From: Rhodococcus tibetensis
GTDB lineage: Bacteria > Actinomycetota > Actinomycetes > Mycobacteriales > Mycobacteriaceae
Length of the DNA: 64,000 bases
NCBI RefSeq assembly: GCF_024438035.1
Contig: NZ_JANFQF010000004.1
Coordinates: 1-64,000, forward strand
Direction: 5' to 3'
Made by a program: the position numbers and the translations under genes. Positions within the stretch are counted from its first letter, which is position 1. The number at the start of each line of letters is the position of its first letter. Of the stretch, positions 22,660 through 33,709 are shown one piece after another. Under the pieces are notes generated by a model. The model searched no databases and was not told where the DNA came from. It was given only the letters and a program-made list of their open reading frames with translations.

Positions 22660-22747
22660 TGGTGCGCGAGGGGGGATTCGAACCCCCACGCCCTTTCGGA
22701 CATCAGGACCTAAACCTGACGCGGCTGCCTGATTACGCCACTCGCGC
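22660..22747 (-). tRNA. tRNA-Leu (anticodon UAG)
   Basis: On the minus strand the sequence folds as a class II tRNA of 88 nt including an encoded 3' CCA. The acceptor pair is GCGCGAG/CTCGCGC. The anticodon stem TCAGG/CCTGA closes a TTTAGGT loop with anticodon TAG, reading CUA. The variable arm is long (TGTCCGAAAGGGCG) and the T-loop is GGGGTTCGAATCCCC. It sits at the boundary of the Rv13xx-like block and the accessory HNH operon. Confidence 0.95.
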
Positions 22748-22793: not shown

Positions 22794-23276
22794 TCAACCG
22801 GCGCGCTCGCCCCTGTCGCGCCTCTTTCGCCCCGCCCACGACGCAGTCTGGCTGTGGCAGTTGGGGCACAGGAATCGCACTTCCCGCAAGCGGGAGTCCA
22901 GCGGGTCTCCCCGTATGTGGTCCACGTGCAGGATCAGCGGGAGTCCGCACCACTCACCTTGCACACCGCATATGACGCATTTGTACGCCACTCCTGCCTC
23001 GATCAGGGCCCGTCGCAGTAGGTGGGGTTGAACGCGTCCGCTGCCTGGTGGGCGACGGATCAGTATCTCCTGCCATGTCATTCGATTGCGGGCGGGCTTT
23101 CCCCTGGTATGCGCCCGCCCTGTGAAGTGCGACGTGTCTATTCGGAGCGCTTTAATCCGGCGACTCAGGTGAGCGTGTGTCCCGCCCGCGGGTTTCAATC
23201 CGAGGTAGCGCATAACGCCTGCGTAACTCCTCGATTCTGCGACCGCCCGCTCGAGAACCTCCCGCGTGTACTTCAC
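22794..23276 (-). CDS. HNH endonuclease, second gene of an SOS-box operon
   Basis: A 160-residue basic protein. Residues 1-50 look like a helix-turn-helix recognition module (YTREVLERAVAESRSYAGVM). The C-terminal half is an HNH nuclease: zinc cysteines in CVICG and CPNCH, the catalytic LHVDHIRGDP and the closing N-x-H in LCPNCHSQT. The GTG at 23276 overlaps the stop of the upstream gene as GTGA, so translation is coupled. The ends of the operon and its LexA box point to DNA-damage induction. Related HNH proteins are scattered in actinobacteria, often in accessory regions; the target is unknown. Confidence 0.85.
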   Translation of the reverse strand: MKYTREVLERAVAESRSYAGVMRYLGLKPAGGTHAHLSRRIKALRIDTSHFTGRAHTRGKPARNRMTWQEILIRRPPGSGRVQPHLLRRALIEAGVAYKCVICGVQGEWCGLPLILHVDHIRGDPLDSRLREVRFLCPNCHSQTASWAGRKRRDRGERAG

Positions 23277-23932
23277 CGTGCACCTGCGAGACGTCGTTGA
23301 GCGCGCTGGTACCGCCAGATCGCGTGGGTGAGGGTGGCCGGAGAGACGTCGAGACGGGTAGCGGCGGCAGCAAGAAGTTCGTCGGCCGTCGTGCTCGTCA
23401 CCTCGACCTCCGGTGCGAGAGCGTCGATGACGAAATCCTTTAGGAGCTCCCGACTTTCGGGGATGCAGACCCCGAGTTGCATTGTGAAGCACTCCCAGGT
23501 GGCGTTCCCGAAACCGGCGATCTGGACGAGCGCATTGCGGCGCACTTCCTCGTCGCGCAGTTCGGAGGATTGCCGGCATCCGGCGGCGACCAGGGAGCGG
23601 GCGGCGAGCGCGACGGCCTCCGCCTTGGTGGTGTAGTTGCCCGGGACCCGTTGCCGGTTGTCGAGGACGGCGATCAGCGCCGCCGGTTCGTCGGCGTACT
23701 CGGCCAGCGCGGCGAGGTCGTCGAGTGGCTCGCCCCGGTGGGCACGCCAACGCGCTATGACGGCACGGACACCGGACGTGGGTGTGCCGTAGGTGGCGCG
23801 GGCGGAGAACGCCGCGTCGAGGAGACCTGCCTCTATCTCGCGTGGCCAGCCTTCCGTCCAGTGTGGCCACACCCCCTGCGGCAGTTCCGCCTCGATGTAG
23901 TCGATCAGGTGACGAACGTGCGCCGTGCTCAT
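23273..23932 (-). CDS. Unknown protein with HhH-GPD-like segment, first gene of SOS-box operon
   Basis: A 219-residue acidic, mostly helical protein with no recognised named family. The stretch IAGFGNATWECFTMQLGV, preceded by paired helices and followed by LLKDFVIDAL, resembles the helix-hairpin-helix and following helix of HhH-GPD base-excision proteins, but no catalytic Lys/Asp pair can be assigned with confidence. The C-terminal 45 residues (TADELLAAAATRLDVSPATL) form another helical unit. The start ATG has a GGGGGGA ribosome site. A perfect LexA box lies 38 bases upstream. Its partner gene encodes an HNH nuclease. A DNA-binding or lesion-recognition role is inferred. Confidence 0.7.
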   Translation of the reverse strand: MSTAHVRHLIDYIEAELPQGVWPHWTEGWPREIEAGLLDAAFSARATYGTPTSGVRAVIARWRAHRGEPLDDLAALAEYADEPAALIAVLDNRQRVPGNYTTKAEAVALAARSLVAAGCRQSSELRDEEVRRNALVQIAGFGNATWECFTMQLGVCIPESRELLKDFVIDALAPEVEVTSTTADELLAAAATRLDVSPATLTHAIWRYQRAQRRLAGAR

Positions 23933-23970
23933 AATTTCCCCCCGGAAGAACGAATGGTCGTGCAGTCTGT

Positions 23971-23986
23971 TCGAACGTTAGTTCGA
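23971..23986 (-). promoter_or_regulatory. Perfect LexA (SOS) box
   Basis: TCGAACGTTAGTTCGA matches the mycobacterial/actinobacterial LexA consensus TCGAAC-N4-GTTCGA at all twelve fixed positions. It lies 38 bases before the start codon of the 219-residue gene at 23932, where a repressor would block its promoter. fas starts 400 bases away in the other direction, so control of fas by this box is less likely. Confidence 0.85.
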
Positions 23987-24092
23987 GGGTCCGACAGGTT
24001 TCGAGATCGAGTGGATGGACACGGCCACGTCACGGCCGACGGGCACGACCTCGGGAATTCGTCAAGTGGTAACGAATTGATAACGATTAATA

Positions 24093-24385: not shown

Positions 24386-27300
24386 GTGACGATTGACGAC
24401 ACGACACCCGCAGGAAATGGAAGAAACTCGAAGGGTTCGCGGCGCATCGGCGTAGACCGGGACGACACTCGGTCGTCGAGCAAGACCACACTCGTCGACC
24501 GTTTGGTCGGCGGCGAGACGTACGCCCTCGCGTTCGGTGGTCAGGGTGCACCCTGGCTGAGCTCGCTCGAGGAGCTGAGCCGGGACAACGGTCTCGAGCC
24601 GGCCCTGACCAAGCTCGTGAACGAGGCCGCCGAATACCTCACACCGGTGGCGCAGGAGCTGCTCGTCGTGCGTCCGGTCGGATTCGACCCCATCGCCTGG
24701 ATTCTCGAACAGGAACTCGCCGATGAAGAAGACGATGCGGCCGCGGCCGGACCTTCTGCAGCTGCTCTCACGTCTGCGGCAGTGTCCCTTCCGGGTGTCT
24801 TCCTGACACAGATCGCTGCGCTGCGTGCGCTGGCTGCCCAGGGCCTCGATCCCACCGTGACTGCACCCGTGTCGGTGATCGGCCACTCCCAGGGACTTCT
24901 CGCTGCGGAGGCCGTCGCGACCTCCGGAAACAAGGACGGCGAACTCCTCGCCCTCGCTCAGCTGATCGGTGCTGCTGCCGGTCTGGTCGGCCGTCGTCGC
25001 GGAGTGATCTCCGCCGCCGACTCCACCCCGATGCTGGCTGTCTCCAACGTCGATCCCGAACGACTCCGTCGGATCGTCGACGAGCTCGCCGAGGGCCTCG
25101 AGCCCGAACGCGCCGCTGTTCTCGGTATCCGCAACGCCCGTCGCCGCGTCGTGCTGTCCGGCCCGCCCGCCCAGCTGGCGCGGGTGCAGCAGCGGTGCGA
25201 GCAGATCGAGGCCGACGAGGCCCGTGAGCGGGACACCAAGAAGCGTGGCGGCTCCATCTTCGCGCCCGTCTTCGAGCCCCTCGCGGTCGAGATCGGCTTC
25301 CACCACCCCGCACTCGCCGAGACGATCGACATCGTCGGCCAGTGGGCCGTCCGTTGCGGCCTCGATGAGGGGAAGGCCCGCGCCCTCACCAGCGCATGCC
25401 TCGTCGATCCCGTCGACTGGGTCGACGCCGTCGACCGCACCATCGACGCCGGTGCTTCCTGGATTCTCGACCTCGGACCGGGTGACCTCCTCACCCGCAT
25501 GACGTCGGCCAGTGTTCGCGGGCAGGGCGTCGGCATCGTCGCTGCTGCTACCCGCGGTGGCCACCGCAATCTCCTTACTCCGGGTGCGGCACCCGAGGTT
25601 CCCGCTGCCTGGACCGAGTTCCTTCCGAAGCCGGTCGCGCTGCCCGGCGGCCGTATCGGAGTCGAGACCGCATTCACCAAGCTGACCGGCCGTTCGCCGA
25701 TCCTGCTCGCCGGCATGACTCCGACCACGGTCGACCCGCAGATCGTCGCCGCAGCTGCCAACGCAGGCCACTGGGCCGAGCTCGCGGGCGGTGGCCAGGT
25801 CACCGAGCAGATCTTCGCCGACAACGTCGAGAAGCTCACCGGGCTGCTCGAGCCGGGCCGCGCCGTGCAGTTCAACTCGATGTTCCTCGACCCCTACCTG
25901 TGGAAGCTCCACGTCGGTGGCAAGCGCCTCGTGCCCAAGGCCCGCGCCGCTGGTGCCCCGTTCGACGGTGTCGTCGTCACCGCCGGTATCCCCGAGCTCG
26001 AGGACGCCGTCTCGATCATCGGAGATCTCACCGACGCCGGCTTCAGCTACGTCGCGTTCAAGCCGGGTACGGTCGCGCAGATCCGCTCGGTCATCCGCAT
26101 CGCGAACGAGGTCCCCTCGTTCCCCGTCATCGCCCACATCGAAGGCGGCCGCGCCGGCGGTCACCACTCGTGGGAAGACCTGGACGACCTGCTTCTCGAC
26201 ACATATGCCGAGCTGCGCACCCGGCCGAATCTGGTCCTGTGCGTCGGTGGCGGCATCGGCACGCCCGAGCAGGCTGCCGACTACCTGACCGGCCGCTGGT
26301 CGGTGGCGCACGGCTTCCCGGCCATGCCGCTGGACGGCATCCTGGTCGGCACCGCCGCCATGGCCACCCTCGAGGCGACCACGTCTGCCGAGGTGAAGCA
26401 GCTCCTCGTCGACACCCCCGGTACTCCGGCCTGGGTCGGTGCGGGCACCGCCGAGGGCGGCATGGCCTCCGGACGTAGCCAGCTCGGCGCCGACATCCAC
26501 GAGATCGACAACGCCGCGTCCCGCACCGGCCGCCTGCTCGACGAGGTCGCCGGTGACGCCGACGCCGTAGCCGAGCGTCGCGACGAGATCATCGAAGCAC
26601 TGAACATCACCGCCAAGCCGTACTTCGGCGACGTCGAGACGATGACGTACGAGCAGTGGCTGCGCCGCTACCTCGAGCTGGCCGTAGGCATCGACGCCGC
26701 GAAGGCTTTCGACTGCGGCTCCGACCTCCAGGACGCCATCACCGAGGCCGCCTCGAGCCCGTGGCTCGACATCACCTGGCGTGCGCGCTTCGGTGAGATG
26801 CTGCAGCGCGCCGAGTCGCGTCTACACCCGGTCGACCGCGGACCGATCCCCACCCTGTTCGCCGACGAGGCGATCCTCGAGCGTCCCGAGGCGGCCATCT
26901 GCGCCCTGCAGGCGCAGTACCCCGACTACGCGACCACGGTTCTGCACCCCGCGGACGTCTCGTTCTTCGTCTCGCTGTGCAAGACCCCCGGCAAGCCGGT
27001 CAACTTCGTGCCCGTCGTCGACGGTGACGTCCGCCGCTGGTGGCGTTCCGACTCGCTGTGGCAGGCGCACGATCCTCGTTACACCGCCGACCAGGTCTGC
27101 GTCATCCCCGGCACCGTCGCCGTCGCCGGCATCACGCGCGTCGACGAGCCGGTCGGTGAGCTGCTCGACCGCTTCGAGAAGGCCACCTACGACGAGCTGG
27201 TCACCGCCGGTGCCGCGCCGCTGTCGCTGCTCGCACGCCGTCACGCGGACATCGCCCGCGGCCTCCTCGACACCGTCCTGTCGGCTCCGGACATCCAGTG

Positions 27301-30300
27301 GGCCTCGCGCCTGACCCTGAACCCGGTTCGCCGGCTCGGTGACCTCGACAAGTGGTCGGTGGAGTCCGACATCCTCGCGGTGCACGAGACCACGGGTGCC
27401 GAGCTCTCCGTGATCGACGACCAACAGGTGCTCCTCACCGTCCCGCTCGTGGCAGGTAAGTCCGTCCAGATCACCATCACCGTTCCCTCCTCCGTGGCGG
27501 ACGGTGGCGCCCCCGTGGTCACCGAGGCCGACGCCGAGAAGTCGATGACCGCACTCCTCGCGGTCGCGGCCGGTCAGGAACTGCCCGCTGTCAAGAACGG
27601 TGTCGCTCGCCTCAACCTGGCTTGGACACCGGACCTGATCGCCGACCACGCCGGTGTCACCGGTTCGGGTCTGCCCAGCGCTCTGAGCGTCAGCGGCAAG
27701 GCGGTCCCGGACGTGGTCGTCGGCGCCTGCTGGCCGGCCGTGTTCGCCGTGCTCGGCGGCGCCAAGACCGAGGATTCGCTCTCGGTGATCGAGGGCATGC
27801 TCGACCTGGTCCACCTCGACCACAGCGTGGACTTCGTGGGTGAACTGCCCTCGGAGACCAGCATTCTCGTGGTGAAGGCCGAGGTCGCCTCGGTCCTCGA
27901 CACAGACCTGGGCCGTGTCGTCGAGGTCAAGGTCGAGGTAGGCGCGATGCTCGGTGAGGGCCTCGACGCCCCTGCCGTCGTCACCCTGTCGGAGCGCTTC
28001 GCGATCCGCGGTCGCACCGGCAAGGGCGAACTGTCCGATCCGGCCCGCGCCGGAGGTTCGCTCAGTGACGAGGCCGTCGACACTCCGCGTCGTCGTCGCC
28101 GCGACACCACGATCGTCGCTCCCCGCAACATGGGCTCCTTCGCCCAGGTGTCGGGCGACCACAACCCGATCCACACTTCCGACAACGCTGCGCTCCTCGC
28201 CGGACTCGGTAGCCCGATCGTGCACGGCATGTGGCTCTCGGCCGCAGCCCAGCAGGTCGTTACCGCCGTGGACCCGGCCGAGACCAAGACGCCGCCGCGT
28301 CGCCTCACCGCCTGGACCGCACGTTTCCTGGGCATGGTTCGCCCCGGCGCCGAGATCGACGTCCGCGTCGACCGCGTCGCCGTGGACCGTGGCGCTGAGA
28401 TCGTCGAGGTCGGGTGCCGCATCGACGGTGAACTGGTGATGGTCGCGACGGGTCGCACCGCCGCCCCGAAGACCGTCTACGCGTTCCCCGGACAGGGCAT
28501 CCAGCGTCCCGGCATGGGTCTCGACGCCCGCGCCCGCTCTAAGGCCGCCCGCGAGATTTGGGACCGCGCCGACAAGCACACCCGCAAGGCTCTCGGCTTC
28601 TCCATCCTCGCCGTGGTCCGCGACAACCCGACGGTCGTCAAGGCCCGTGGTGTCGAGCACAAGCACCCGGACGGTGTCCTGCACCTGACTCAGTTCACCC
28701 AGGTCGCGATGGCGACTCTCGGTGTCGCGCAGGTTGCCGAACTCCGCGAGTCCGGTGCCTTCGTCGAGGGCGCCCTGCTCGCAGGCCACTCGGTCGGTGA
28801 GTACAACGCTCTCGCCGCCGTCGCCGGTGTGCTGCCGCTCGAAGCCGTTCTCGAGGTGGTCTTCCAGCGCGGTTCCGCCATGCACGCCCTGGTGCCGCGC
28901 GACGAGGCCGGCCGTTCCGACTACCGGATGGCCGCTATCCGTCCGTCGCAGATCGGTCTCGCGGACGAGGACGTCGAGTCGTTCATCGGTGATATCGCCT
29001 CGGCCACAGGTGAATTCCTGCAGGTCGTGAACCTGAACCTGCGGGGCTCGCAGTACGCCATCGCGGGCACGGTCGCCGGACTCGACGCGCTCGAGAAGGA
29101 AATCGACATTCGCCGTGAGGCTTTCGGTGGCAAGCGCGCCTACATCATGGTCCCGGGCATCGATGTTCCGTTCCACTCGACTGTTCTGCGCGGCGGTGTC
29201 GACGACTTCCGTGGTCGCCTCGAAGAACTGCTTCCGCAGGACATCGACCCGGCCATCCTCATCGGGCGTTACATCCCGAACCTGGTTCCCAAGCCGTTCT
29301 CGCTGAAGCGTGAGTTCGTGCAGGAGATCGCGGACCTCGTGCCGTCGAAGCCGCTGCAGAAGGTCTTGAAGGACTTCGACTCGTGGGTGGCGCAGCCGTC
29401 CCAGCTCACTCGCGTCGTGCTCACCGAGCTTCTGGCCTGGCAGTTCGCAAGCCCGGTCCGGTGGATCGAGACGCAGGACCTGCTGTTCGCCGACGAATCC
29501 GAGGGAGGACTGGGTGTAGAGCGGTTCGTGGAGATCGGTCTGGGCTCCGTCCCGACCGTCGCGAACCTCGCTGCGCAGACTCTCAAGTTGCCGGGACGCC
29601 TCGGTTACCCGGTCGAGGTCCTCAACATCGAGCGTGAAGCGTCCATCGTGTACTCCACCGACGTCGATCCGGCGCCGGTCGAGGACGACGAGCCTGCAGC
29701 ACCGGCAGCCGAGGCGCCCGCCGCATCGGCAGCCCCCGCCGCCGCTCCGGCACCCGCGGCAGCCCCTTCGGGCGGCCCGCGTCCCGACGACATCGCGTTC
29801 AAGGCAGCCGACGCCACCAAGGTTCTGATCAGCCTGTGGACCAAGCTCCGTCCCGATCAGGTCGGCCCCGTCGACACGATCGAGGCGCTGTGCGACGGTG
29901 TGTCCTCGCGGCGTAACCAGCTGCTCGTAGACCTCGGCTCCGAGCTCTCGCTCGGCGCGATCGACGGTGCCGCGGACGCCGACATGGGCTCGCTGGCCAC
30001 CACGGTCGACTCGCTGGCCCGCACGTACAAGCCGTTCGGCCCGGTGCTGTCCGACTCGATCAACGATCACCTCCGCAAGGTCTTCGGCCCCTCGGGTCGT
30101 CGTCCCGCGGCCATCGCGGACCGGGTGAAGAAGGTCTGGGAACTCGGCGACGGCTGGGCGTACCACGTCACCGCCGAGGTGGCGCTCGGAACCCGCGACG
30201 GTTCCAGCATCCGTGGCGGTGACCTCGGTGGTCTCGCCGGGGGCGGTCTCGCCGACGGCGCTGCAGTGGACGCCGTCATCGACAGCGCCGTGGCAGCAGT

Positions 30301-33300
30301 GGCCTCGCGCCGTGGGATCAGCGTCTCGCTCCCGTCCACGGGTGGCGGAGCCGGTGGCACCGTCGACGCCGCGGCACTGGGTGAATTCACCGAGCACATC
30401 ACGGGCCGCGACGGCGTGCTGGCCTCGGCCGCCCGCCTCGTGCTCGAACAGCTCGGCTTCGCCGGTGACACGGCAACCGCAGCGGCGCCGTCCGACACCG
30501 AACTCGTCGACCTCGTGTCGGCGGAACTCGGTTCCGACTGGCCGCGACTGGTGGCTCCCGCGTTCGACGCCAAGCGGGCGGTCCTGCTCGACGACCGTTG
30601 GGCGAGCGCACGTGAGGATCTGGCCCGTCTGTGGATCGACGCGGCCGGCTCGGGATCCCTCGAGATCGAAGGCTTCGCCGGTGCAGGCAAGTCCGTTGCG
30701 GCGCAGGCCGCATGGTGGCAGGCCCGCGCAACCGACGAGGGTCGCACGGCTCTGGCCGAGAAGTACGGGCGCATCGCGGAGGCGGCAGCCGTCGTCACCG
30801 ACGAGACCCCGGAATGGGCAGACCAGGTCGCCGTCGTCACCGGTGCCAGCAAGGGCTCCATCGCGGCCTCGGTCGCAGGCAAGCTCCTCGCCGGCGGCGC
30901 GACGGTCTTCGTCACCACCTCGCGTCTCGACGACAAGCGTCTCGGCTTCTACCGCGACCTCTACCGCCGCAATGCTCGCGCCGGTGCCGCTCTGTGGGTG
31001 GTCCCCGCGAACATGGCGTCGTACACCGACATCGACGCGCTCATCGAGTGGATCGGTGAAGCCCAGTACGAGACGGCCGGTGGATCGAAGAAGCTCGTCA
31101 AGGAAGCGGTTACCCCGACGCTGCTGTTCCCGTTCGCCGCGCCCCGCGTGGCAGGCGACCTGGCTGACGCCGGTGCCCGCGCCGAAATGGAGATGCGCGT
31201 TCTCCTGTGGTCGGTGGAGCGCCTGATCGGCGGACTGTCGAAGATCGGTTACGACCGTGACGTCGACACCCACCTGCACGTCGTTCTACCCGGGTCCCCG
31301 AACCGCGGTCTGTTCGGTGGCGACGGTGCGTACGGCGAGGCCAAGGCCGCGCTCGACGCAGTGGTCGGCCGCTGGAAGGCCGAGCGCAACTGGGCCGAGC
31401 GCGTCACCCTGGTGCACGCTCTCATCGGCTGGGTCCGCGGAACCGGTCTGATGGGCGGCAACGACCCGCTGGTCGAGGCTGTCGAAGGTGCCGGAGTCCG
31501 TACCTGGTCCACCCAGGAAATGGCCACCGAGCTGCTGCAGTGGTGCGAGCCCGAGGCGCGTCGCCTCGCCTCCACCGAGCCGCTCGCGGCCGATCTCACC
31601 GGTGGGCTCGCCCAGGCGAACCTGGACCTGCCCGCCCTGGCGAAGCAGGCTCAGGAAGCTGCGACCGCTGCGGCCGAGGCCGACGAGGACGCTGCCGAGC
31701 TCGACACCATCGCTGCCCTGCCCGCCCCGCCGCGGGTCTCCGCGTCGGTGGCACCGGCCTGGTCCGGCGTCACTGCCGCTCCGGAGGACCTCGTCGTCAT
31801 CGTCGGCGCCGGTGAGCTCGGACCGTTCGGATCCTCGCGCACCCGCTTCGAGATGGAGGTCGACGAAAAGCTCTCGGCAGCAGGTGTCCTCGAACTCGCC
31901 TGGAACACCGGACTGATCGTCTGGGAGACCACACCGTCCGCAGGCTGGTACGACGCCGAGACCGGGGAACTGGTTCCGGAGGCCGAGATCGCGGAGAAGT
32001 ACCACGACACGGTCGTCGAGCGCTGCGGCATCCGCCGCTACGCGGACGACGGCGCCATGGTCGAGAACACCGCACCGCTCCTCACGTCGGTCTTCCTGGA
32101 CAAGGACCTGAGCTTCGTCGTCAGCACCGAGGCGGAGGCACGGGCCTTCGTCGAGGCCGACCCGGACAACACGGTTGCGGCCCCGGTCCCGGACAGCGCT
32201 GACTGGCAGGTCACCCGCCGCGCGGGAACCGAGATCCGCGTGCCGCGCAAGATGAAGCTCACGCGCAGCGTGGGTGGTCAGATCCCGACCGGATTCGACG
32301 TCACCAAGTGGGGCATCCCCGCCGACATGGCCGACTCCGTGGACCGCGTGGGCCTGTGGAACATCGTCGCCACGGTGGATGCGTTCCTCACCGGTGGGTT
32401 CACGCCCAGCGAACTGCTGCGGTGGGTGCACCCCTCGCTGGTCGCCAACACCCAGGGCACCGGCATGGGCGGCATGTCCTCCATGAGGTCGCTGTACATC
32501 GACACGCTGCTCGGCGAGAACCGGCCGAACGACATCCTGCAGGAAGCTCTGCCGAATGTGATTGCGGCGCACGTGGTCCAGTCCTACGTCGGCGGTTACG
32601 GCGCCATGGTCCACCCGGTTGCGGCATGCGCCACGGCCGCGGTGTCCGTCGAAGAGGGCGTCGACAAGATCAAGCTCGGCAAGGCTCAGCTGGTCGTTGC
32701 CGGTGGCTTCGACGACCTGAGCACGGAAGGCATCATCGGCTTCGGTGACATGTCGGCCACCGCGAAGACCGAGGACATGCATGCCAAGGGCATCGAGGAT
32801 CGCCGCTTCTCGCGGGCCAACGATCGTCGACGCGGCGGATTCGTCGAATCGGCCGGCGGCGGCACGATCCTCCTCGCTCGCGGTGACCTGGCACTCGAGA
32901 TGGGCCTGCCCGTCCTCGGTGTCGTCGCCTACGCCGGCTCGTTCGCGGACGGCGTCCACACCTCGATCCCCGCTCCCGGAATCGGTGCGCTCGGTGCGGG
33001 GCGTGGGGGAGCGAATTCGCAGCTCGCCCAGTCCCTCGGCAAGCTCGGTGTCAGTGCCGACGACATCTCGGTGATCTCCAAGCACGACACGTCCACCGCG
33101 GCCAACGATCCCAACGAGGCGGAGCTGCACGAGCGCCTCGCCGGGGCCCTCGGCCGGAGCGAAGGTGCGCCGCTGTTCGTGGTTTCGCAGAAGAGCCTCA
33201 CCGGACACGCCAAGGGTGGTGCCGCAGCATTCCAGCTGATCGGTCTCTGCCAGGTGCTGGATCAGGGTGTCGTCCCGCCGAACCGCAGCCTCGACTGCGT

Positions 33301-33709
33301 CGACGAGAAGATGGCCGAGTTCGAACACCTCGTGTGGGCTCGGGAGCCGCTCCGATTCGGTGAGCAGTTCCCGCTGAAGGCCGGTCTGCTGACCAGCCTC
33401 GGCTTCGGGCACGTGTCGGGCATGGTCGCCGTGGTGCACCCGCAGGCATTCGTCGAGGCACTCCCGGCAGACAAGCGGGATGCGTACCTCGAGGAGGCAC
33501 GAGGGCGCACCGTCGAGGGTCAGCGTCGTCTGGCGAAGGCCATGGTCGGTGGCGGCAGCCTGTACGAGCGTCCGGCGGATCGACGCTTCGGTGGCGACAG
33601 TGTCCCGGCCGCAGCATCTCGTCAGCTGGAGGCGGACGTCCTGCTCAGCGAGGGCGCGCGCCTGGGAGCCGACGACGTGTACAGCTCGGGTCTGCCCGGC
33701 TGCAAGTAG
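24386..33709 (+). CDS. fas: Type I fatty acid synthase (single-chain FAS-I)
   Basis: A 3107-residue multienzyme, full length for the mycobacterial type. Domains in order: acetyltransferase with GHSQG near 167; enoyl reductase with AGMTPTTVDPQ near 441; dehydratase with GDHNPIHTS near 1257; malonyl/palmitoyl transferase with AGHSVGEYNA near 1466; an Ala/Pro linker near 1770; acyl carrier with the likely phosphopantetheine serine in GVSSRRNQ near 1840; ketoreductase with VVTGASKGSI near 2150; ketosynthase with cysteine in AACATAAVS near 2748 and histidines in KHDTSTAAN and LTGHAKGG. There is no built-in phosphopantetheinyl transferase; acpS follows after 11 bases. It makes C16-C26 acyl-CoAs for membranes and mycolates. 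GTG start with AGGAGAGG upstream. Confidence 0.98.
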   Translation: MTIDDTTPAGNGRNSKGSRRIGVDRDDTRSSSKTTLVDRLVGGETYALAFGGQGAPWLSSLEELSRDNGLEPALTKLVNEAAEYLTPVAQELLVVRPVGFDPIAWILEQELADEEDDAAAAGPSAAALTSAAVSLPGVFLTQIAALRALAAQGLDPTVTAPVSVIGHSQGLLAAEAVATSGNKDGELLALAQLIGAAAGLVGRRRGVISAADSTPMLAVSNVDPERLRRIVDELAEGLEPERAAVLGIRNARRRVVLSGPPAQLARVQQRCEQIEADEARERDTKKRGGSIFAPVFEPLAVEIGFHHPALAETIDIVGQWAVRCGLDEGKARALTSACLVDPVDWVDAVDRTIDAGASWILDLGPGDLLTRMTSASVRGQGVGIVAAATRGGHRNLLTPGAAPEVPAAWTEFLPKPVALPGGRIGVETAFTKLTGRSPILLAGMTPTTVDPQIVAAAANAGHWAELAGGGQVTEQIFADNVEKLTGLLEPGRAVQFNSMFLDPYLWKLHVGGKRLVPKARAAGAPFDGVVVTAGIPELEDAVSIIGDLTDAGFSYVAFKPGTVAQIRSVIRIANEVPSFPVIAHIEGGRAGGHHSWEDLDDLLLDTYAELRTRPNLVLCVGGGIGTPEQAADYLTGRWSVAHGFPAMPLDGILVGTAAMATLEATTSAEVKQLLVDTPGTPAWVGAGTAEGGMASGRSQLGADIHEIDNAASRTGRLLDEVAGDADAVAERRDEIIEALNITAKPYFGDVETMTYEQWLRRYLELAVGIDAAKAFDCGSDLQDAITEAASSPWLDITWRARFGEMLQRAESRLHPVDRGPIPTLFADEAILERPEAAICALQAQYPDYATTVLHPADVSFFVSLCKTPGKPVNFVPVVDGDVRRWWRSDSLWQAHDPRYTADQVCVIPGTVAVAGITRVDEPVGELLDRFEKATYDELVTAGAAPLSLLARRHADIARGLLDTVLSAPDIQWASRLTLNPVRRLGDLDKWSVESDILAVHETTGAELSVIDDQQVLLTVPLVAGKSVQITITVPSSVADGGAPVVTEADAEKSMTALLAVAAGQELPAVKNGVARLNLAWTPDLIADHAGVTGSGLPSALSVSGKAVPDVVVGACWPAVFAVLGGAKTEDSLSVIEGMLDLVHLDHSVDFVGELPSETSILVVKAEVASVLDTDLGRVVEVKVEVGAMLGEGLDAPAVVTLSERFAIRGRTGKGELSDPARAGGSLSDEAVDTPRRRRRDTTIVAPRNMGSFAQVSGDHNPIHTSDNAALLAGLGSPIVHGMWLSAAAQQVVTAVDPAETKTPPRRLTAWTARFLGMVRPGAEIDVRVDRVAVDRGAEIVEVGCRIDGELVMVATGRTAAPKTVYAFPGQGIQRPGMGLDARARSKAAREIWDRADKHTRKALGFSILAVVRDNPTVVKARGVEHKHPDGVLHLTQFTQVAMATLGVAQVAELRESGAFVEGALLAGHSVGEYNALAAVAGVLPLEAVLEVVFQRGSAMHALVPRDEAGRSDYRMAAIRPSQIGLADEDVESFIGDIASATGEFLQVVNLNLRGSQYAIAGTVAGLDALEKEIDIRREAFGGKRAYIMVPGIDVPFHSTVLRGGVDDFRGRLEELLPQDIDPAILIGRYIPNLVPKPFSLKREFVQEIADLVPSKPLQKVLKDFDSWVAQPSQLTRVVLTELLAWQFASPVRWIETQDLLFADESEGGLGVERFVEIGLGSVPTVANLAAQTLKLPGRLGYPVEVLNIEREASIVYSTDVDPAPVEDDEPAAPAAEAPAASAAPAAAPAPAAAPSGGPRPDDIAFKAADATKVLISLWTKLRPDQVGPVDTIEALCDGVSSRRNQLLVDLGSELSLGAIDGAADADMGSLATTVDSLARTYKPFGPVLSDSINDHLRKVFGPSGRRPAAIADRVKKVWELGDGWAYHVTAEVALGTRDGSSIRGGDLGGLAGGGLADGAAVDAVIDSAVAAVASRRGISVSLPSTGGGAGGTVDAAALGEFTEHITGRDGVLASAARLVLEQLGFAGDTATAAAPSDTELVDLVSAELGSDWPRLVAPAFDAKRAVLLDDRWASAREDLARLWIDAAGSGSLEIEGFAGAGKSVAAQAAWWQARATDEGRTALAEKYGRIAEAAAVVTDETPEWADQVAVVTGASKGSIAASVAGKLLAGGATVFVTTSRLDDKRLGFYRDLYRRNARAGAALWVVPANMASYTDIDALIEWIGEAQYETAGGSKKLVKEAVTPTLLFPFAAPRVAGDLADAGARAEMEMRVLLWSVERLIGGLSKIGYDRDVDTHLHVVLPGSPNRGLFGGDGAYGEAKAALDAVVGRWKAERNWAERVTLVHALIGWVRGTGLMGGNDPLVEAVEGAGVRTWSTQEMATELLQWCEPEARRLASTEPLAADLTGGLAQANLDLPALAKQAQEAATAAAEADEDAAELDTIAALPAPPRVSASVAPAWSGVTAAPEDLVVIVGAGELGPFGSSRTRFEMEVDEKLSAAGVLELAWNTGLIVWETTPSAGWYDAETGELVPEAEIAEKYHDTVVERCGIRRYADDGAMVENTAPLLTSVFLDKDLSFVVSTEAEARAFVEADPDNTVAAPVPDSADWQVTRRAGTEIRVPRKMKLTRSVGGQIPTGFDVTKWGIPADMADSVDRVGLWNIVATVDAFLTGGFTPSELLRWVHPSLVANTQGTGMGGMSSMRSLYIDTLLGENRPNDILQEALPNVIAAHVVQSYVGGYGAMVHPVAACATAAVSVEEGVDKIKLGKAQLVVAGGFDDLSTEGIIGFGDMSATAKTEDMHAKGIEDRRFSRANDRRRGGFVESAGGGTILLARGDLALEMGLPVLGVVAYAGSFADGVHTSIPAPGIGALGAGRGGANSQLAQSLGKLGVSADDISVISKHDTSTAANDPNEAELHERLAGALGRSEGAPLFVVSQKSLTGHAKGGAAAFQLIGLCQVLDQGVVPPNRSLDCVDEKMAEFEHLVWAREPLRFGEQFPLKAGLLTSLGFGHVSGMVAVVHPQAFVEALPADKRDAYLEEARGRTVEGQRRLAKAMVGGGSLYERPADRRFGGDSVPAAASRQLEADVLLSEGARLGADDVYSSGLPGCK

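Follow-up and report, generated by a model that had tools for sequence, protein, structure and literature searches.

Genes that carry elements of both the PafBC and the LexA damage responses are known in mycobacteria (PMC8223512). PafBC is a partner of RNA polymerase that is activated by single-stranded DNA (PMC11804915), and in the recA-type dual promoters its core and an SOS box lie in one upstream region (PMC8223512, PMC5656591, PMC11804915). SOS-induced genes for HNH endonucleases are also on record (PMC8151990, PMC7911356), among them Rv3074 and Rv3776 of Mycobacterium tuberculosis, which have LexA boxes and are given there as of unknown function; phage homing endonucleases have been treated in general (PMC10448857). 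Here we describe a locus in a 64,000-nucleotide stretch of Rhodococcus tibetensis DNA (contig NZ_JANFQF010000004.1; the window), where two overlapping genes, P0001 for a glycosylase-like protein and P0002 for an HNH nuclease, lie in a slot between a tRNA-Leu gene and a divergent gene. The latter we take, from its sequence, to be fas (type I fatty acid synthase). As in the mycobacterial dual promoters (PMC8223512, PMC5656591, PMC11804915), a PafBC core and an SOS box share the upstream region, but in the slot the box overlaps or directly follows the -10 element and tracks the nuclease gene. P0002 resembles Rv3074 and Rv3776 by description only, and the fas slot is not mentioned for them in the relevant parts of PMC7911356 and PMC8151990.

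The slot follows a simple rule that can be checked in other genomes: the nuclease gene goes with a LexA lock, and P0001 alone goes with PafBC alone. In our judgement the slot is probably a damage-inducible one, in which a PafBC-driven transcription unit holds a non-catalytic lesion binder and an exchangeable nuclease of the homing family, the latter accompanied by a LexA double lock. A phage-type nuclease family would thereby be tied to two bacterial damage responses, which makes the locus a natural test case for the taming of mobile nucleases by host repair regulons. Among the titles listed by a search of one open-access library, none dealt with the fas/tRNA-Leu slot, the link between box and nuclease, the P0001 family or the cassette exchange.

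A variable slot between fas and tRNA-Leu

The features of the locus, in window coordinates, are as follows.

23273 to 23932, minus strand: P0001, a 219-residue protein of predicted HhH-GPD fold without the GPD catalytic Asp (open reading frame (ORF), fold prediction and alignment)
22794 to 23276, minus strand: P0002, a 160-residue HNH protein whose GTG start overlaps the P0001 stop (ORF and alignment)
23971 to 23986, strandless: perfect LexA (SOS) box, TCGAAC-N4-GTTCGA (motif search)
23975 to 23996, minus strand: PafBC/RecA-NDp promoter core, TGTCGGACCCTCGAACTAACGT (motif definition from PMC5656591 and PMC8151990)
23938 to 23943, minus strand: GGGGGG, probably the P0001 ribosome-binding site (the orthologues, too, have a G-run before their starts)
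22660 to 22747, minus strand: tRNA-Leu (by its anticodon tag), which borders the slot on one side and lies 46 nt from the HNH stop
24386 to 33709, plus strand: fas, the divergent gene at the other border, the same neighbour in 69 loci

The original prediction, made from the window alone, had a 219-residue gene coupled by GTGA to an HNH gene, a perfect LexA box 38 bases before the first of them, and the pair placed at a junction of gene blocks beside a tRNA-Leu. Both ORFs were found as described, with a GTGA overlap that joins the P0001 stop to the GTG start of P0002; 38 nt separate the P0001 ATG (at 23932) from a box with no mismatch, and fas forms the other side of the junction. The tRNA-Leu lies nearby in 17 of 20 loci tested with ARAGORN, including all 15 that hold P0001 or the HNH gene. 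Taken together, the slot appears to be a variable one, with one or two genes whose upstream motifs point to switching on by DNA damage.

Two control elements overlap upstream of P0001

The LexA box TCGAACGTTAGTTCGA at 23971-23986 has 0 mismatches to the consensus, and the 5.81-Mb genome contains 6 such perfect boxes against 1 for a reversed-pattern control; with up to one mismatch allowed the counts are 71 and 4. A one-mismatch limit is reasonable, because two boxes with one mismatch each lie upstream of the lexA gene of this genome. All nine sister loci (L008-L016) have a box with 0-1 mismatch at the same place, and together with the reversed-pattern control and the orthologue survey below this rules out a chance match. 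With an SOS box at P0001 and a lexA gene in the genome, the locus reads as a putative member of the LexA regulon.

The SOS-type control proposed in the original prediction is thus supported by the elements upstream of P0001, one of which had been missed there. The PafBC core TGTCGGACCCTCGAACTAACGT (23975-23996, minus strand) overlaps the LexA box, inside which its -10 hexamer, TAACGT (23975-23980), is situated. It matches the core TGTCGG-10N-TA-3N-T (PMC8151990) perfectly and the longer consensus tTGTCRgtg-8nt-TannnT (PMC5656591) with 3 mismatches. The pattern TGTCRGTG-N8-TANNNT has 18 perfect sites in the genome and, with one mismatch, 75 and 77 on its two strands, where the reversed pattern has 39 and 21; because the reversed pattern also scores, single weak sites mean little and it is conservation that bears weight. 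Behind the 18 sites lie ORFs that we read from their sequences as uvrA-like and lhr-like, together with non-repair genes and places with no convincing ORF. Behind a pafA-like gene the genome also has a neighbouring pair of WYL genes, presumably pafB and pafC, these three names being our reading of the sequences; with these genes and the RecA-NDp core both present, P0001 is a candidate member of the PafBC regulon as well.

The LexA box accompanies the nuclease gene

Relatives of P0001 were found in 23 of 28 genomes of the genus and in 102 of 401 of the family, and the gene is linked to fas in 22 of the 28. Among the 69 fas-linked orthologues whose loci were fetched, the strict PafBC core is present in 65, on the gene's strand only, compared with 0.17% of shuffles; near-matches are visible in the other four (L020, L037, L048 and L049). 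The LexA box, at up to one mismatch, is found in 13 of the 13 P0001 loci that have the HNH gene or its remains and in 0 of the 56 that do not, such that the second promoter lock occurs in the surveyed P0001 loci only where the nuclease is present. A limit of two mismatches adds a box in L042 and L058, both of which lack the HNH gene. A quickly built FAS tree, which has a single kind of support value, requires 3 changes of the HNH label, at least 2 of them forced, and because these changes are few the Fisher p of the association is not independent evidence.

Many HNH relatives in other genera occupy the same fas slot. A FAS match was obtained in 220 of the 241 genomes searched, and 60 further fas-divergent regions were picked by hand from the matches listed, with HNH-holding genomes included on purpose so that the share with HNH is no measure of prevalence. 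The HNH gene lies within 1 kb of fas, and P0001 is absent, in 20 of these slots; the 40 others include L255, which has a distant HNH piece only; L278 is a short one. In its TGTC[AG]G form, the PafBC core is present in 20/20 slots with HNH and 1/40 without, and the LexA box in 18/20 (L257 and L270 lack it) and 0/40, respectively. From the motifs, then, PafBC is the wider putative control element, and the LexA box is the one that accompanies the nuclease. Counted from the start of the PafBC motif, the box begins 10 nt further on in L007, L016, L027 and L028, the Rhodococcus loci in which this was measured, 32 nt in L048, 29-32 nt in the genus group g27 and 21 nt in L236; that its position varies while its partner does not suggests that the box was gained repeatedly.

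Genus-wide HNH matches at an E-value of 1e-15 are all at the P0001 locus except L198, on a contig of an incomplete genome. At the level of the class, HNH relatives occur in 42 of 394 genomes, the window's own included, and loci were returned for 29 others. Nine of the 29 have the PafBC core, starting 28-42 nt upstream of the gene start as the alignment, extrapolated, places it (opposite strand, 0; shuffles, mean 0.006); five of the nine are from one family, four of them from one genus, and the rest from three more families. No LexA box at one mismatch was found in these 29 loci.

The survey tells against the two-part unit that senses and cuts DNA, as first proposed: box and HNH partner are both missing from 56 of 69 fas-linked P0001 orthologues, and 20 of the 60 further slots have the HNH gene without P0001. 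Homologues without box and partner were among the outcomes that the original prediction had itself set as refuting. An obligate pair of any kind, whether toxin-antitoxin or sensor-nuclease, is ruled out by this lack of regular co-occurrence. As a separate observation, five g27 loci (L239, L243, L244, L245 and L248) contain a tandem pair of HNH genes in the fas slot.

P0001 has the predicted fold of a glycosylase without its catalytic residue

The predicted overall fold of P0001 is that of the HhH-GPD DNA glycosylase superfamily, and both this fold and the HhH hairpin are shared with MagIII, MutY, EndoIII and OGG1. The G-x-G of the hairpin is retained in 68/68 fas-linked orthologues (the shortened L080 being left out), whereas the catalytic GPD Asp, present in 14 of the 15 outer relatives with a fetched locus that were aligned (L032-L036 and L096 left out), is found in 0/68. 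The HhH-like lesion module of the original prediction therefore stands as a glycosylase-like protein, but without the glycosylase Asp. Profile-profile comparison, which had been named there as the check, gave an E-value of 1e-4 and a probability of 57% with hhalign against four HhH-GPD proteins of the same genome, and 8e-6 and 83.5% for the outer relatives. No Pfam model reached its cut-off with P0001 (the best was VapB, E 0.086), NCBIfam and PADLOC gave no family, PHROGs yielded nothing better than E 0.23 and 0.25, and the sequence matches in the Protein Data Bank (PDB) were weak, in agreement with the earlier view that it is of no named family and in distinction from the glycosylases above. 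Pfam likewise named no family at cut-off for five outer relatives, one of which was also without a PDB match. A phage or plasmid origin was rejected, as P0001 matched no phage record, one plasmid at 34% and no viral contig by pattern search.

The glycosylase-like Mag2 of Schizosaccharomyces pombe, which is bound to damaged DNA in PDB entry 4hsb, has a fold like that predicted for P0001 and an HhH hairpin as well. With this predicted fold but no catalytic Asp, P0001 is most likely a binder of lesions or unusual DNA that removes no bases, and its sequence relations indicate that it is probably a vertically inherited gene. It is thus a widespread gene with a damage-response promoter, a predicted glycosylase fold that lacks the catalytic residue, and no Pfam or NCBIfam name. 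A longer and more distant relative is encoded elsewhere in the genome (G000:C8:67701-67955), and a relative of this paralogue in another genome (L031) has Asn at the position of the GPD Asp.

P0002 belongs to a phage-type nuclease family

P0002 matches PHROG 10822 (HNH endonuclease) over residues 2-154, nearly its full length (E 1.1e-52), as well as 170 phage records, the best at 53% identity (Vibrio phage D69), and at least 584 viral stretches. Phage genes of this homing-type HNH family home, and by sequence kinship P0002 belongs to the free-standing HNH homing-endonuclease family; it differs from the phage members in being chromosomal, in having host damage-response elements upstream and in its link to LexA boxes. 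It fell below the cut-off of the Pfam HNH model PF01844 (14.9 bits against 21.4) and had no PDB sequence match at E 1. All five PADLOC matches span the HNH part alone, the best being a homing-endonuclease model (E 2.5e-7), with weak, domain-level matches to ZorE nucleases (E 5.8e-6).

The paired zinc cysteines that had been noticed earlier are present (C100/C103 and C137/C140), as are both histidines, but H120-E132-H141 replaces H-N-H. Both His and all four Cys are conserved in 41/41 aligned HNH proteins, and the middle position is N in 38, E in 2 (as in the window copy, E132) and Q in 1. E or Q is found in the six intact copies of the R. opacus branch and in L028, and N in L027, L048 and the readable g27 copies. 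In the R. opacus branch and L028 this change from Asn to Glu or Gln occurs together with one from HIDGN to HIRGD, which perhaps reflects an active site that is altered or weakened. Among ten copies of the R. opacus branch, three are interrupted (L009, L010 and L011) and one is frameshifted near its start (L014), while P0001 stays open; the six intact copies are under purifying selection (dN/dS 0.04-0.24 in 15 pairs). In the Felixounavirus SP22 (L404, 1483-2013) an HNH relative ends 1 nt before a tRNA-Leu within a tRNA array, the corresponding distance in the window being 46 nt.

The nuclease gene is exchanged as a cassette

Comparison of L012 with L016 gave flanks of 95-100% identity, P0001 of 89-95% and HNH of 69-82%. 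The pairs L015/L014 and L013/L015 are alike (HNH 64-76%), the 3' half of P0001 also dipping in L013/L015, and L007/L016 has the reverse pattern. The two overlapping genes also disagree in dS, for example 0.12 for P0001 and 0.52 for HNH in L012/L016, and 1.03 and 0.44 in L007/L016; the dS of HNH is above 1, and only rough, in several pairs. Trees of nine HNH and nine P0001 proteins were unresolved. In a separate comparison the groups L007+L008 (p 0.004) and L012+L013+L015+L016 (p 0.003) are rejected by the HNH tree, and L007+L013+L016 (p 1e-8), picked after seeing the HNH relations, by the P0001 tree. Because flank and gene identities, dS and trees disagree in this way, we conclude that the HNH gene was transferred between species and that P0001 kept to its flanks. 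Within the slot, the HNH gene has been passed from one Rhodococcus species to another as a cassette, with mosaicism strongest over the gene plus ~100 bp. On spread into a fixed site, as for a homing endonuclease, the observations are cassette exchange and discordant trees; direct homing was not seen.

Weighing the explanations

The reading we favour is that the damage regulons have tamed a nuclease of the homing family. PafBC, sensing single-stranded DNA, would activate the promoter of the slot's transcription unit, and P0001, lacking the catalytic Asp, would bind lesions or unusual DNA without base excision. The HNH nuclease would sit beside it as an exchanged cassette. Where it is present, the LexA box lies as a rule over or just after the PafBC -10, a position that would block polymerase, so that the promoter would fire only with PafBC active and LexA cleaved; such a double lock would prevent expression of the nuclease before the RecA response has fully developed.

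The main rival, which we regard as possible though less probable, is a plain host DNA-processing nuclease of the PafBC/SOS regulons that has no mobility of its own, the mosaicism being ordinary homologous recombination. The mycobacterial SOS regulon already holds HNH endonucleases (PMC8151990, PMC7911356), HNH is present in 17/17 of the fetched g27 slots (with interruptions in L241 and in one of the two L239 copies), and its dN/dS is low; the concentration of mosaicism over the nuclease gene and the full-length kinship to phage HNH genes argue the other way. We think it rather unlikely that P0002 is a homing endonuclease timed to recombination, which PafBC and LexA would hold silent until single-stranded DNA and RecA filaments form and which would then cut and copy itself into HNH-less slots, with a catalytically dead lesion binder of glycosylase descent as a recurrent, independently useful neighbour.

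Self-killing or abortive infection, in which heavy damage would release the HNH DNase to destroy the chromosome, seems less likely again. Two damage-response elements on one promoter would suit it, as would the weak ZorE matches and the precedents of the HNH nuclease MSMEG_1275 in cell death of M. smegmatis (PMC9416677) and of the RecA-dependent HNH nuclease Ref of phage P1 (PMC4713147). Against this, the best PADLOC match is to a homing endonuclease and none extends beyond the HNH part, neither gene has an obligate partner, the window copy is H-E-H, and P0001-only slots (56/69) outnumber the other P0001 loci. Finally, the repair reading of the original prediction, a two-part damage-induced excision system in which P0001 marks a lesion for the HNH nuclease to incise, is improbable, for despite the adjacent, overlapping genes under damage-type control, the HhH-GPD fold and the low dN/dS of the intact copies, either gene is common alone, HNH is swapped independently of P0001, and it is interrupted or frameshifted in 4/10 R. 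opacus-branch copies while P0001 stays open.

Other damage-type motifs in the genome

Two near-copies of a protein of over 400 residues that looks, by eye, like RuvC/TnpB (L126 and L127; G000:C11:98628 and C12:30255) have an identical PafBC-like motif 166-292 nt upstream of each; the one copy scanned had no Pfam match. At G000:C33:38701-38716 (L006) a perfect LexA box stands 181 nt upstream of an ORF whose HNH domain scores just below the PF01844 cut-off (E 8e-4, 20 bits) and which looks like the mycobacterial 13E12 type. At G000:C5:132172-132216 (L003, L119) a HEPN_SAV_6107 gene (PF18726) is preceded by both a perfect LexA box and a PafBC core, whose starts are 29 nt apart, and may be another dual-locked gene.
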